Source: Mycobacterium sp. DL440
GTDB taxonomy: Bacteria > Actinomycetota > Actinomycetes > Mycobacteriales > Mycobacteriaceae
Direction: 5' to 3'
Assembly: GCF_011745145.1 (NCBI RefSeq)
Contig: NZ_CP050191.1
Span: 3,024,296-3,088,295, forward strand
Length of the DNA: 64,000 bases
The notes beneath the pieces are model-generated. The model worked only from the letters and a program-made list of their open reading frames with translations. It was not told the origin of the DNA and did no database searches. Below, one piece after another: positions 4,268 through 8,147 of the stretch. Made by a program: the position numbers and the translations under genes. How positions within the stretch are numbered: position 1 is the stretch's first letter; each line of letters begins with the position of its first letter.

Positions 4268-5440
4268 TTATGCCAGCAAGGTGCGCACCACCCCGTCGGC
4301 CAGCAGCCGCCCGCGATCAGTGAGCATCACGCGATCGTCTGCCAACCTGATCAACCCGTCGGCCACCAGCCCGGCCACCCGTGCCCGCTCCGTCGCCGAC
4401 AGATCCCCCAAGGGCAACCCGCGGCTCAGCCGCAGCCGCAGCATCACTTCCTCCATATGCCGGTCGCGGTCGTCGAGCTTCTCGAAATCCGCTATCGGCA
4501 AATGGTTTTCAGCCAATGCCTGTGCATAGGAATTGGGATGCTTGACATTCCACCACCGAGTGTCACCAAGGAAGCCGTGGGCTCCCGGCCCGGCGCCCCA
4601 CCACTCACCACCGTCCCAGTAGCCGAGGTTGTGCCGGCACTCCCCGCCGTCGGTACTCCAGTTCGACACCTCGTACCAGTGCAGGCCGGCCGCAGACAAC
4701 CGGCTGTCCAGTAGTTCGTAGCGCCGCGCGAGCACGTCGTCGTCCGGCCGGCTGATCTCGCCGCGGCGCACCCGGCGAGCCAGGGCGGTGCCGTCCTCGA
4801 CGATCAGCGAGTACGCGGACACGTGGTCGACGCCGGCGCCCAGCGCTACGTCGATCGAGCGGCACAGATCGTCATCGGTCTCCCCCGGCGTGCCGTAGAT
4901 CAGGTCGATGTTGACGTGCTCGAACCCGGCGGCCCTGGCCTCCAACGCCGCCGCAGGCGCGCGGCCCGGAGAGTGCGTGCGATCCAGCACGGCCAGCACC
5001 TGCGGCGCCGCCGACTGCATGCCGAGTGAGATCCGGGTGTAGCCGGCCTCACGCAGCGTCGCGAACATCTCCGGAGAGGTGGATTCCGGATTGGCCTCGG
5101 TCGTCACCTCGGCGCCGGCGGCCAGGTCGAAATTGTCCCGAACCGCACCCAGCACCGCAGCCAGGCCCGGGCCGCCGAGCAGAGAAGGCGTGCCGCCACC
5201 GACGAACACCGTCTGCACCGGTACAGCCCCGACCGTGGCGGCGGCCAGGGCCAGTTCGATGCGCAGCGCGGCCAGCCAGCCATCTGGGTTGGCACCCCCC
5301 AGCTCAGCCGGCGTATACGTGTTGAAGTCGCAATATCCGCACCGGGTCGCACAGAACGGCACGTGGATGTAGATGCCGAAGGCACGCCCGGGCACGCGGG
5401 CCAACCGGGGTTGGCTGACGGGTGCGGTGCGGGTGCTCAT
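4268..5440 (-). CDS. hemN: Radical SAM coproporphyrinogen dehydrogenase-like protein (HemN/HemW)
   Basis: 390-residue radical-SAM protein. The [4Fe-4S]/SAM motif CATRCGYC follows GIYIHVPF about 25 residues from the start. Further family landmarks are FVGGGTPSLL, TTEANPES, RISLGMQS and a C-terminal HemN domain (NLGYWDGGEWWGAGPGAHG). The Rv2388c-type proteins are annotated as coproporphyrinogen III dehydrogenase. Most short actinobacterial members look like HemW, a heme chaperone, since Gram-positives make heme by the coproporphyrin route. The ATG at 5440 leaves the motif at the usual distance; the open frame upstream runs through an apparent promoter region and the nirA leader. Transcribed away from nirA. 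Confidence 0.85.
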   Translation of the reverse strand: MSTRTAPVSQPRLARVPGRAFGIYIHVPFCATRCGYCDFNTYTPAELGGANPDGWLAALRIELALAAATVGAVPVQTVFVGGGTPSLLGGPGLAAVLGAVRDNFDLAAGAEVTTEANPESTSPEMFATLREAGYTRISLGMQSAAPQVLAVLDRTHSPGRAPAAALEARAAGFEHVNIDLIYGTPGETDDDLCRSIDVALGAGVDHVSAYSLIVEDGTALARRVRRGEISRPDDDVLARRYELLDSRLSAAGLHWYEVSNWSTDGGECRHNLGYWDGGEWWGAGPGAHGFLGDTRWWNVKHPNSYAQALAENHLPIADFEKLDDRDRHMEEVMLRLRLSRGLPLGDLSATERARVAGLVADGLIRLADDRVMLTDRGRLLADGVVRTLLA

Positions 5441-5533
5441 GGTTTCATTTTCCCAGACTGTCCAGCGACGACTTTTGCTCACCCTGAACGCAAATATGGC
5501 CCGGTTAGGGCAGGTGGCGACAATCGTGGCAGA

Positions 5534-5638
5534 ATGTCGGGCGTGACTGCCGCCCACAACAGCACCACCCGCATTGCGCTGGTGGCTCGTCGGCATGTCG
5601 ATTTCAAGCGCGTATGTAGCTGTTGCTGTCTGCCTTAA
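5534..5638 (+). CDS. Polycysteine leader peptide of the nirA-cysH operon
   Basis: Short ORF of 34 codons (ATG 5534), or 31 codons from an in-frame GTG at 5543. It ends in Val-Cys-Ser-Cys-Cys-Cys-Leu-Pro-stop, with the Cys codons at 5615-5629. If the GTG is used it could be leaderless: CAGAAT (5530-5535) lies 7 nt before it and fits a weak -10 element. Polycysteine leaderless short ORFs are known in M. smegmatis as cysteine-responsive attenuators: ribosomes pausing at Cys codons change downstream RNA folding. The position 122 nt before a sulfite/APS reductase operon and the Cys cluster support the same job here. The peptide itself probably has no function. Confidence 0.8.
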   Translation: MSGVTAAHNSTTRIALVARRHVDFKRVCSCCCLP

Positions 5639-5677
5639 TCATGCGTTGATTTCGGACCCCGCCCGCCCCATAGTTTC

Positions 5678-5755
5678 AGCTGGCACCGGATCTGCGCCGC
5701 CGGACAGCCACCGGTGATCTGCGCGTTCTAGTGCCAGCTCCTTTGCGAAGGAGCT
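5678..5755 (+). promoter_or_regulatory. Attenuator RNA controlling the nirA ribosome-binding site
   Basis: Two exclusive folds are visible. Fold A: AGCTCCTT (5736-5743) pairs perfectly with AAGGAGCT (5748-5755) around a TGCG loop, burying the nirA Shine-Dalgarno AAGGAG (5748-5753); CACCGG (5684-5689) can also pair with CCGGTG (5711-5716). Fold B: AGCTGGCAC (5678-5686) pairs perfectly with GTGCCAGCT (5731-5739), breaking both fold-A stems and freeing the Shine-Dalgarno. AGCTG in the leader Cys tract (5618-5622) can pair with CAGCT (5677-5681), so a ribosome paused on the Cys codons would favour fold B. Pairings are read from sequence; the switching order is inferred. Confidence 0.7.
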
Positions 5756-5760
5756 CAACA

Positions 5761-7449
5761 GTGACAACCCCCGAGGCCCCAGCCAAGGCCGACCGGCCCG
5801 CCAAGAAACCCCGCGACGAGGGTCAATGGGCGCTGGGTAGCCGCGACCCGCTCAACCACAACGAGCAGTTCAAGCAGGAGGACGACGCACTCAACGTGCG
5901 GGACCGCATCCTCAACGTCTACTCGCGTGACGGCTTTGCCAGCATCGCCAAGGACGACCTGCGCGGCCGGTTCCGGTGGATGGGCCTCTACACCCAGCGC
6001 ACCGAAGGTTACGACGGCACCTTCACCGGCGACGACAATGCCGACCTGCTCGAGGCCGAGTACTTCATGATGCGGGTGCGCACCGACGGTAAGGCGATGT
6101 CGGCCCAGGCCGTGCGCACCCTCGGACAGATCTCGATCGACTTCGCCCGCGAGAGCGCCGACATCACCGACCGGGAGAACCTGCAGTACCACTGGCTGCG
6201 CATCGAGGACATCCCCGAGGTGTGGCGCCGCCTCGACGAGGTCGGGCTGCAGACCATGGAGGCCTGCGGCGACTGCCCGCGCGGCATGCTGGGCTCGCCG
6301 CTGGCCGGCGATTCGCTGGTCGAGGTGCTGGACCCCACGCCCGCGCTCAAGGAGATCGAAGAGCGCTACATCGGCAGCCCGGAGTTCTCCAACCTGCCCC
6401 GCAAGTTCAAGACCGCCGTCTCCGGCCTGCAGGACGTCGCCCACGAGATCAACGACGTGTCGTTCATCGGGGTCAACCATCCCGAGCACGGCCCCGGCCT
6501 GGACCTGTGGGTCGGCGGCGGGTTGTCCACCAACCCGATGCTTGCCCAACGGGTCGGCGTGTGGGTGCCGCTGGAGGAAGTGGCCGAGGTGTGGGCCGGC
6601 GTGATCGGGATCTTCCGTGACTACGGCTACCGCCGGCTGCGTTCCAAGGCGCGGCTGAAGTTCCTGGTCAAGGACTGGGGCGTGGAGAAATTTAGGAAAA
6701 TTCTCGAAGAGGAATACCTCAAGCGCCCCCTCCACGACGGCCCGGCTCCCGAGCAGGTGCCACACACCGTCGACCACGTCGGTGTGCAGAAGATCCGCAA
6801 CGGCCTCAATGCTGTCGGTGTCTCGGCGATCGCCGGGCGGGTCTCGGGCACCATCCTGACCAAGGTCGCCGACCTGATGGAGGCCGCCGGCTCCGACCGC
6901 GCCCGCCTGACCGCGTACCAGAAGCTGATCATCCTCGACGTGCCCGATGAGAATCTGGCCAAGCTCAGGGAGGGCCTGGACGCGCTCGGCCTGCAGTCAC
7001 AGCCGTCGCACTGGCGTCAGAACCTGATGGCCTGCACCGGCATCGAGTACTGCAAGCTGAGCTTCGCCGACACCCGTGGACGGGCCCAGACGCTGGTGCC
7101 CGAGCTGGAGGCACGGCTGGGCGACCTCAACGCCGAGCTCGACGTGCCCGTCACTGTGAACATCAACGGCTGCCCCAACTCGTGCGCCCGCATCCAGGTT
7201 GCCGACATCGGCTTCAAGGGCCAGATGGTCGACGACGGCGACGGCCCAGAGGAGGGCTTCCAGGTGCACCTGGGCGGCAGCCTGGGCCTCGACAGCGGCT
7301 TCGGCCGCAAGCTGCGTCAGCACAAGGTGCTGGCCACCGAGCTCGGCGACTACATCGAGCGGATCGTCCGCAATTTCGTGAAACAACGCGACGCCGGCGA
7401 GCGTTTCGCCCAGTGGGCCATTCGGGCCGACGAGGACGACTTGAGGTGA
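5761..7449 (+). CDS. nirA: Ferredoxin-dependent sulfite reductase (NirA/SirA)
   Basis: Reduces sulfite to sulfide with six electrons from ferredoxin, using a coupled siroheme and [4Fe-4S] cluster; cytoplasmic. The 562-residue protein shows the diagnostic cluster ligands CTGIEYC (Cys425, Cys431) and NGCPNSC (Cys471, Cys475), plus the ferredoxin-type half-domains around RENLQYHWLRIED and LDLWVGGGLSTNPM. The often used name nirA is misleading, because the mycobacterial enzyme is a sulfite reductase. GTG 5761 was chosen: AAGGAG lies 7 nt upstream and is itself part of the attenuator hairpin. The stop overlaps the cysH start by 4 nt. Confidence 0.93.
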   Translation: MTTPEAPAKADRPAKKPRDEGQWALGSRDPLNHNEQFKQEDDALNVRDRILNVYSRDGFASIAKDDLRGRFRWMGLYTQRTEGYDGTFTGDDNADLLEAEYFMMRVRTDGKAMSAQAVRTLGQISIDFARESADITDRENLQYHWLRIEDIPEVWRRLDEVGLQTMEACGDCPRGMLGSPLAGDSLVEVLDPTPALKEIEERYIGSPEFSNLPRKFKTAVSGLQDVAHEINDVSFIGVNHPEHGPGLDLWVGGGLSTNPMLAQRVGVWVPLEEVAEVWAGVIGIFRDYGYRRLRSKARLKFLVKDWGVEKFRKILEEEYLKRPLHDGPAPEQVPHTVDHVGVQKIRNGLNAVGVSAIAGRVSGTILTKVADLMEAAGSDRARLTAYQKLIILDVPDENLAKLREGLDALGLQSQPSHWRQNLMACTGIEYCKLSFADTRGRAQTLVPELEARLGDLNAELDVPVTVNINGCPNSCARIQVADIGFKGQMVDDGDGPEEGFQVHLGGSLGLDSGFGRKLRQHKVLATELGDYIERIVRNFVKQRDAGERFAQWAIRADEDDLR

Positions 7450-8147
7450 CCACATTGACTGAGACGGAACTGATCGAGCTCGCTGAGCGCGGTGCGGCCG
7501 AGCTGGCCGACGCCAGCGCGGAGGAGTTGCTGCGCTGGACCGACAAACACTTCGGTGGAAACTACGTCGTGGCGTCCAACATGCAGGACGCCGTCCTGGT
7601 CGAGATGGCGGCCAAGGTGCGCGCCGGCGTCGACGTGCTATTCCTCGACACCGGATACCACTTCGCCGAGACCATCGGCACCCGTGACGCCGTGGAGCAG
7701 GTGTACGGCGTGAACGTGGTCAACACCCATCCCGACAACACCGTTGCCCAGCAGGACGAGCTGCACGGCAAGGACCTCTTCGCCCGCGACGCCGCAGCCT
7801 GCTGCCGGATGCGCAAGGTCGAGCCGCTGGGCAAGGCGCTGGCCGGCTACACCGCCTGGGTCACCGGCATCCGTCGGGTGGAGGCGCCGACGCGCGCCAA
7901 CGCACCGCTGATCAGCTGGGACAGCGCCTTCGGCCTGGTCAAGATCAACCCGATCGCAGCCTGGTCCGACGACGAGATGCAGGCCTACATCGAGGCCAAC
8001 GACATCCTGGTCAATCCCCTTGTCCACGAAGGATATCCGTCCATCGGATGCGCGCCGTGCACCGCCAAACCGGAGGCCGGCGCCGATCCGCGCAGCGGCC
8101 GGTGGGCCGGTCAGTCCAAGACGGAGTGCGGGCTGCACGCCTCGTGA
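7446..8147 (+). CDS. cysH: Adenylylsulfate (APS) reductase
   Basis: Reduces APS to sulfite and AMP for assimilation, feeding NirA. 233 residues. Both halves of the [4Fe-4S] binding pattern of APS-type reductases are present: tandem Cys119-Cys120 (AACCRMRK) and Cys202/Cys205 (IGCAPC). The catalytic tail cysteine is in ECGLHAS at the C-terminus. The Cys pair marks APS rather than PAPS specificity. The GTG start overlaps the nirA stop (GTGA), implying translational coupling and shared control by the cysteine leader. Confidence 0.93.
   Translation: MTTLTETELIELAERGAAELADASAEELLRWTDKHFGGNYVVASNMQDAVLVEMAAKVRAGVDVLFLDTGYHFAETIGTRDAVEQVYGVNVVNTHPDNTVAQQDELHGKDLFARDAAACCRMRKVEPLGKALAGYTAWVTGIRRVEAPTRANAPLISWDSAFGLVKINPIAAWSDDEMQAYIEANDILVNPLVHEGYPSIGCAPCTAKPEAGADPRSGRWAGQSKTECGLHAS

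Follow-up and report, generated by a model that had tools for sequence, protein, structure and literature searches.

The nirA-cysH leader in the window, the whole 64,000-nucleotide stretch of DNA analysed, is probably a cysteine-responsive translational attenuator. We show by computation that its elements are present, that they are complementary beyond shuffled sequences, that they recur in relatives, and that an intrinsic terminator is lacking. The leader can be described by four strands, in which strand 2 is common to two hairpins (1:2 and 2:3) and strand 3 can also pair with the Shine-Dalgarno (SD) sequence of nirA (3:4). The coordinates are summarized in Table 1.

In the mechanism we propose, the probably leaderless leader ORF carries a Cys-rich tract at its end, and cysteine would, by analogy with the published system, be the signal. 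When Cys-tRNA is plentiful, the ribosome would clear the Cys tract, and the freed positions 5625-5632 and the post-stop spacer would pair with strand 2 during its transcription (hairpin 1:2). With 1:2 formed, strand 3 would be left for the SD (3:4), and nirA would be off. Under Cys-tRNA scarcity, it would instead sit on the Cys codons and cover the base of 1:2; strand 2 would then pair with strand 3 (2:3), the anti-SD would be captured, and the SD would open and nirA be translated. We infer the leaderless start, the stalling, and the kinetic choice of 1:2.

Table 1. Features of the nirA leader and the genes downstream of it (positions in the window).
Feature	Position	Strand	Remarks
Probable -10 element CAGAAT	5530..5535	+	TGGCA[CG]AAT pattern in relatives
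Leader ORF (uORF), probable leaderless GTG start	5543..5638	+	VTAAHNSTTRIALVARRHVDFKRVCSCCCLP, then stop
Codons for LVARRHVDFKRV	5579..5614	+	12 residues directly before the Cys tract; pN/pS 0.12; motif in other genera
Cys tract TGT AGC TGT TGC TGT (C S C C C)	5615..5629	+	last Cys codon TGT in 71/71 distinct leaders
Strand 1	5625..5666	+	last Cys codons and post-stop spacer; pairs with strand 2
1:2 pairs	5625-5632 x 5701-5708; 5643-5646 x 5694-5697; 5648-5651 x 5689-5692	+	minimum free energy (MFE) fold of nascent RNA
1:2 pairs, continued	5653-5655 x 5686-5688; 5661-5663 x 5682-5684; 5665-5666 x 5679-5680	+	MFE fold of nascent RNA
Strand 2	5677..5708	+	near-invariant core CAGCTGG..GGATCTGCGCCGCCGGACAGC (alignments A1 and A2); common to hairpins 1:2 and 2:3
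Strand 3	5711..5743	+	CCGGTG, GCGCG, anti-SD; partner is strand 2 or, for the anti-SD end, the SD
2:3 pairs	5678-5686 x 5731-5739; 5688-5690 x 5727-5729; 5693-5697 x 5721-5725; 5698-5703 x 5711-5716	+	MFE fold
Strands 3:4, SD-sequestering hairpin	5736..5755	+	8 bp, 4-nt loop
Shine-Dalgarno AAGGAG	5748..5753	+	7 nt 5' of nirA GTG 5761
nirA	5761..7449	+	ferredoxin sulfite/nitrite reductase family; best matches PRK09566 and NirA family, below NCBIfam cut-offs
cysH-like APS reductase	7446..8147	+	TIGR02055 above cut-off; start overlaps nirA stop

Locus, leader ORF and sampled relatives

The window comes from a 6.38-Mb genome whose NirA is 97% identical to the NirA of a Mycolicibacterium peregrinum strain, so the source is probably a fast grower among the mycobacteria. 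hemW lies upstream of the nirA leader on the opposite strand, and 3' of the cysH-like gene is an ORF that matches sirohydrochlorin chelatase models, below their cut-offs.

The leader ORF upstream of nirA is Cys-rich and ends in ...RRHVDFKRVCSCCCLP before its stop codon. A search on Cys spacing alone recovered a like Cys-rich ORF before nirA in 80/80 relatives, the best 80 of 459; the window and these 80 relatives all have a short ORF with Cys codons clustered near the stop, 5' of a sulfur-metabolism gene. The pattern TGGCA[CG]AAT, followed by GTG or ATG after 6-7 nt, was present in the window and in all 19 relatives inspected, which were chosen from the 80. In the window, the -10-like element is 7 nt 5' of GTG 5543; a sigma-70 scan found no promoter for the leader ORF. 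Because of the conserved -10-like element and its spacing to GTG or ATG, GTG 5543 was favored over ATG 5534, and the ORF probably has a leaderless start at GTG 5543. ATG 5534 was rejected as the start: it shares bases with the -10 element, and relatives do not conserve it.

The last Cys codon (5627-5629) is TGT in 71/71 leaders, against 23 TGC and 4 TGT codons in six long ORFs of the window. It is also TGT in 188/191 sequences of a wider set that includes other genera, which means that strand 2 pairing cannot fully explain its conservation. A synonymous recoding test for pairing selection in the uORF gave a weak result (p<0.05 in 7/79 leaders). In one leader (L153), a Gly codon replaces the first Cys of the tract (KRVGSCRCLP), and the rest of the leader is intact.

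Alignment A1 comprises 79 of the 81 leaders, since L003 and L004 do not differ from the window in the part used and were dropped. The non-redundant alignment A2 comprises 129 of 155 leaders, any leader with a similarity of at least 0.965 to a kept one having been removed. Among the 109 loci L083-L191, 84 matched the leader regular expression, of which 57 were new and kept and 27 were repeats or, by rule, start-less (L111). A second expression recovered 19 of the 25 failures but did not match L103 or L167; these two and L105, L106, L109, and L125 were left out. Since the relatives share ancestry, counts over leaders are not counts of independent events. On one sampled contig (L026), titled 'Acidobacteria bacterium isolate UR.bin238', the nirA gene (NirA 82% identical) and its leader are mycobacterial, and the contig looks mis-binned.

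Pairing in the window and across 129 leaders

A prior sequence-only reading had described this region as a two-state switch, in which an 8-bp hairpin hides the SD and a 9-bp rival helix frees it. All the pairings that it listed exist. Positions 5736-5743 (AGCTCCTT) and 5748-5755 (AAGGAGCT) form the hairpin, positions 5678-5686 (AGCTGGCAC) and 5731-5739 (GTGCCAGCT) the rival, and both helices are perfect in sequence. The interpretation as a two-state SD switch is partly supported. In post hoc comparisons with dinucleotide shuffles, perfect SD helices of 8 bp or more had P=0.0062 within 40 nt upstream (5000 shuffles) and P=0.008 anywhere in the leader (2000 shuffles), and perfect helices of 9 bp or more that use the same anti-SD strand had P=0.0026 (5000 shuffles). 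The combination of SD sequestor, competing anti-SD helix, and Cys-rich leader ORF recurs across Mycobacterium, beyond shuffled and reversed controls.

The two helices overlap only at 5736-5739 and are mutually exclusive for just these 4 bp, and in the lowest-energy SD-closed fold of 5606-5775, the full SD hairpin and 5682-5686 x 5731-5735 coexist. In the window, the rival that was to release the SD contests only 4 of the 8 SD pairs and release is partial, as is the exclusivity of 2:3 and 3:4. The rival was also said to destroy a third stem, 5684-5689 (CACCGG) with 5711-5716 (CCGGTG). Its 6-bp complementarity is present, but its probability was 0.00 in all four transcripts holding both strands, with 5698-5703 x 5711-5716 predicted in its place. 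We rejected the third stem as a functional element.

In the E. coli trp-type attenuator, the position of the ribosome on the regulatory codons sets the choice among strand pairings 1:2, 2:3, and 3:4. The same strand logic, mutually exclusive 1:2, 2:3, and 3:4 hairpins with the regulatory codons in strand 1, was found in the nirA leader; in trp, 3:4 is the terminator, whereas here it is the SD sequestor. The two-state description overlooked hairpin 1:2, which could connect ribosome position to the choice of structure. Its helix P1 (5625-5632 x 5701-5708) has 8 bp and a probability of 0.97 in nascent window RNA, and its 5' strand comprises most of the last two Cys codons and the next codon. The nascent RNA 5606-5709 has an MFE of -27.7 kcal/mol, compared to -15.8 for 5643-5709; 11.9 kcal/mol are lost without 5606-5642. 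Hairpin 2:3 in the window has 9 + 3 + 5 + 6 bp and an MFE of -35.8 kcal/mol, and strand 3 pairs with the SD over 8 bp.

The predicted folds contain a link from the Cys tract to strand 2, P1, that is longer than and distinct from the one previously named. The two-state switch as originally written dispenses with a 1:2 hairpin: the Cys tract itself (5618-5622, AGCTG) sequesters the start of strand 2. These five bases are complementary to 5677-5681 (CAGCT) in the window, and 5619-5680 is G-C in 87/129 leaders; however, it is C-C in the other 42, with no compensation. Five pairs are also few compared to the 8 bp of P1, and the MFE fold of the nascent window RNA uses 5625-5632. We rejected the link at 5618-5622 and consider this version very improbable. 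The attenuator with hairpin 1:2 has a demand of its own: at equilibrium in the window, the probability of P1 is 0.02, and 2:3 beats 1:2 even without a ribosome. Because equilibrium prefers 2:3, hairpin 1:2 would have to win kinetically, as in trp.

A structure that sequesters the downstream ribosome-binding site (RBS) is predicted. The probability that the SD core is paired in the local hairpin is 1.00 in the window and averages 0.90 over the 129 leaders (at least 0.9 in 98, below 0.7 in 18). Leaders L145, L160, L161, L165, and L190 have a loop without CAG and poor SD hairpins (P 0.25-0.49); with such leaders present, the scheme varies within Mycobacterium. In a clade of five leaders (L022, L024, L025, L027, and L028), GGATC[GA]GC replaces GGATCTGC in strand 2, the 2:3 helix has a C-U mismatch, and the local SD hairpin is weak (P 0.36-0.66).

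We compared duplexes in the 129 non-redundant Mycobacterium leaders of A2 with dinucleotide shuffles, where z<0 denotes a duplex better than the shuffle mean. For the 2:3 complementarity, z was below 0 in 129/129 leaders, with p<=0.05 in 111. The corresponding counts were 127 and 74 for the spacer with strand 2, and 124 and 84 for the Cys tract with 5698-5726. In the reversed-sequence controls, the mean z was +0.02 for 2:3, +0.49 for the spacer, and +0.65 for the Cys tract, and z was below 0 in 61, 33, and 34 of 129 leaders, respectively. In nascent RNA, more than half of strand 2 was paired with strand 1 in 107/129 leaders; this pairing was above the shuffle mean in 109/129 and had p<=0.05 in 76/129. 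P1 in fixed register had a probability above 0.5 in 73/129 leaders and below 0.1 in 35/129.

Inspected by eye, the spacer takes three unlike forms (GTTGATTTCGG, GATCTAGG..CAGCC, and GTAGACC), each with stretches complementary to the near-invariant strand 2. In the same order, z was below 0 in 14/14, 21/21, and 72/72 leaders, and p<=0.05 in 1, 15, and 56; for the 22 leaders outside the three forms, the counts were 20 and 2. The window's own spacer gave no significant result with strand 2 (z -0.34, p 0.31), and among the 14 leaders with its form, all had z<0 and only 1 reached p<=0.05.

Strict covariation was scarce, and weak or absent by the measures used. In the ON structure in fixed register, 91.6% of cells pair, compared to 91.2% in shuffles (0/500 as high) and 25-45% when the partner is slid by 1-3 columns. 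Of 2782 cells, 7 were double changes, where the shuffles averaged 3.1 (13/500 shuffles as high); strand 2 is nearly invariant. The covariation score of the ON structure, which was derived from these same sequences, equaled that of the shuffles. Double changes were not in excess in either the SD stem (71.5% of cells paired; 42-51% after sliding) or P1 and its flanks (87.6%; 27-46% after sliding). With so constant a core, covariation is poorly suited as a test.

The equilibrium energies calculated for the window are fragile: ON minus OFF is +1.3 kcal/mol for 5606-5763 and -0.5 for 5606-5775, so that the sign hangs on the transcript ends chosen. We compared ON and OFF energies in 109 of the 129 leaders; the other 20 lacked the fixed-register pairs. 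Removing the ribosome-covered stretch shifted ON minus OFF toward ON by more than 0.5 kcal/mol in 69/109 leaders and in the opposite direction in 17; depending on the choice of cut, these counts ranged over 57-76 and 10-24. Native strand 1 favored OFF more than shuffled strand 1 did in 98/109 leaders, and in 74/109 when the covered part alone was shuffled.

The accessibility of the SD changes little in the modeled equilibrium folds. With a stall at the last Cys codon, the SD was more open in 26/79 leaders and less open in 4/79; with a stall at the first, the counts were 16 and 8. Folding with the Cys region masked had been suggested as a check on the two-state switch. At full-length equilibrium, this mask left the SD more open in 16/79 leaders and less open in 9, and control masks behaved alike (15:6 and 15:7). 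These small changes and the weak covariation would fit an ordinary GC-rich leader with incidental alternative helices and an SD opened by initiating ribosomes. The shuffle tests over 129 leaders and the clean reversed controls argue against this explanation, and we regard it as unlikely.

Known attenuators and the mode of control

Cysteine-responsive attenuation by mycobacterial polycysteine leaderless sORFs has reportedly been described by Canestrari et al. in 2020 (Mol Microbiol 114:93). Passages in three articles cite that work for attenuation by leaderless Cys-rich sORFs in mycobacteria (PMC13236596, PMC9031893, PMC9094748). As described in these passages, the sORF attenuators resemble the nirA leader: a leaderless Cys-rich sORF comes first in a sulfur operon, and stalling is said to relieve a structure at the RBS. 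What differs here is that the individual strands of the nirA leader are identified and examined in 129 leaders, by computation alone. Shell et al. (2015) include a conserved small ORF before nirA/Msmeg_4527 (their Fig 7C) among Cys-enriched upstream ORFs (PMC4633059). This is the same locus; attenuation is a speculation there, and the portion of the text compared contains no RNA structure.

Seliverstov et al. (2005) predicted runs of Cys codons near the stop in leader ORFs before mycobacterial cys operons (PMC1262725). According to the part of that paper compared, no conserved terminator hairpins were found in those cys leaders and Rho is proposed, whereas the hairpins conserved here end on the SD. 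The suggestion of Rho would favor transcription attenuation, intrinsic or Rho-dependent, in place of SD occlusion. However, no terminator-like site was found in 5440-5800, 3:4 was not found to be an intrinsic terminator, and the last hairpin, which includes the SD, lacks a U tract. Intrinsic termination was rejected, and transcription attenuation as a whole seems improbable to us; we retain translational attenuation as the preferred reading. A search of the whole window against Rfam returned 0 matches above the gathering score.

In the same source, the actinobacterial LEU element of leuA is similar to the nirA leader in having a leader peptide with regulatory codons and alternative structures that involve the SD (PMC1262725). 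As described there, the run of Leu codons pairs with the SD itself, whereas the Cys tract of the nirA leader pairs with strand 2. Because Cys-rich leaders, including that of nirA, and cysteine-responsive attenuation have already been published, the system is of a known kind. The strand scheme and its tests, the corrected links, and the peptide signal are added here; we do not claim priority for the nirA pairing scheme. A control whose structure is vague in the passages compared, in which stalling uncovers the RBS, becomes a base-pair scheme that can be tested with a handful of reporter mutants.

The peptide before the Cys tract and the spread of the RNA core

For the 12 codons directly before the Cys tract (-12 to -1), pN/pS is 0.12 (bootstrap 0.08-0.15) in 71 distinct mycobacterial leaders, 42 of them non-redundant. 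For codons -18 to -13, it is 0.95-1.00 (bootstrap 0.83-1.08 on 0.95). The regular expression used for this comparison demands KR[VITA]C, which 81/81 leaders contain. Judged from these codons, the values show purifying selection at the peptide level on LVxRRHVDFKRV. Of 63 non-Mycobacterium loci, 42 also carry RRH[VI]D-x-KR or a close form 5' of nirA; they represent 18 of the 26 other genera examined. Two loci (L227 and L233) have forms of the leader with the motif and a single Cys codon. In its own genome, the motif was found at the nirA leader only (two patterns searched); within the reach of these searches, Cys sORFs do not carry it in general. In a literature search with the peptide strings, which matched 110 papers, none of 20 listed titles was about a bacterial leader.

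These observations raise the question of whether leader peptides are only codon counters or arrest peptides too. In a variant compatible with the attenuator, the nascent LVxRRHVDxKRV would slow or arrest the ribosome near the Cys codons; peptide and Cys-tRNA together would be the sensor, and the RNA switch a lineage-specific read-out. The 12 residues would presumably sit in the upper exit tunnel during decoding of the Cys codons, and the amino-acid constraint expected of an arrest peptide in this segment was found (0.12 versus 0.95 for the codons just upstream). The motif in 18 of 26 other genera, in some cases with a single Cys codon and with no match or a weak one to the RNA model, points the same way. 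On the other hand, a peptide functioning in trans would give the same signal, and neither pattern found the motif elsewhere in the own genome. We therefore hold this variant to be possible but doubtful.

To follow the spread of the RNA core, we trained a covariance model on strands 2-4 of 22 leaders. The model found one copy in the own genome. Among 121 genomes of the family, searched with stricter filters, all 7 from Mycobacterium were matched, at E<=2.1e-4, and 8 of the remaining 114 had matches with E 0.009-0.09, all away from the nirA hits of those genomes. In a direct search of 40 loci, 8/8 Mycobacterium loci were matched at E<=4.6e-4.

The peptide thus persists in 18 other genera, although the model finds little or nothing of the RNA core there, a hint that the nascent peptide contributes. 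As a tentative picture, the leader might be a two-layer cysteine sensor. An old conserved nascent peptide, LVxRRH[V/I]D[F/L]KRV, would set or tune the stall at the Cys codons, and Mycobacterium would add the 1:2 / 2:3 / 3:4 SD switch; other genera would keep the peptide, sometimes with one Cys codon, followed by RNA in which this core is detected barely or not at all. Among the 32 loci from other genera in the direct search, three had weak matches just 5' of nirA (L213, E 0.04; L203, E 0.05; L218, E 0.33). They may come from no more than the model's SD-start end, or from a faint relic of the core.
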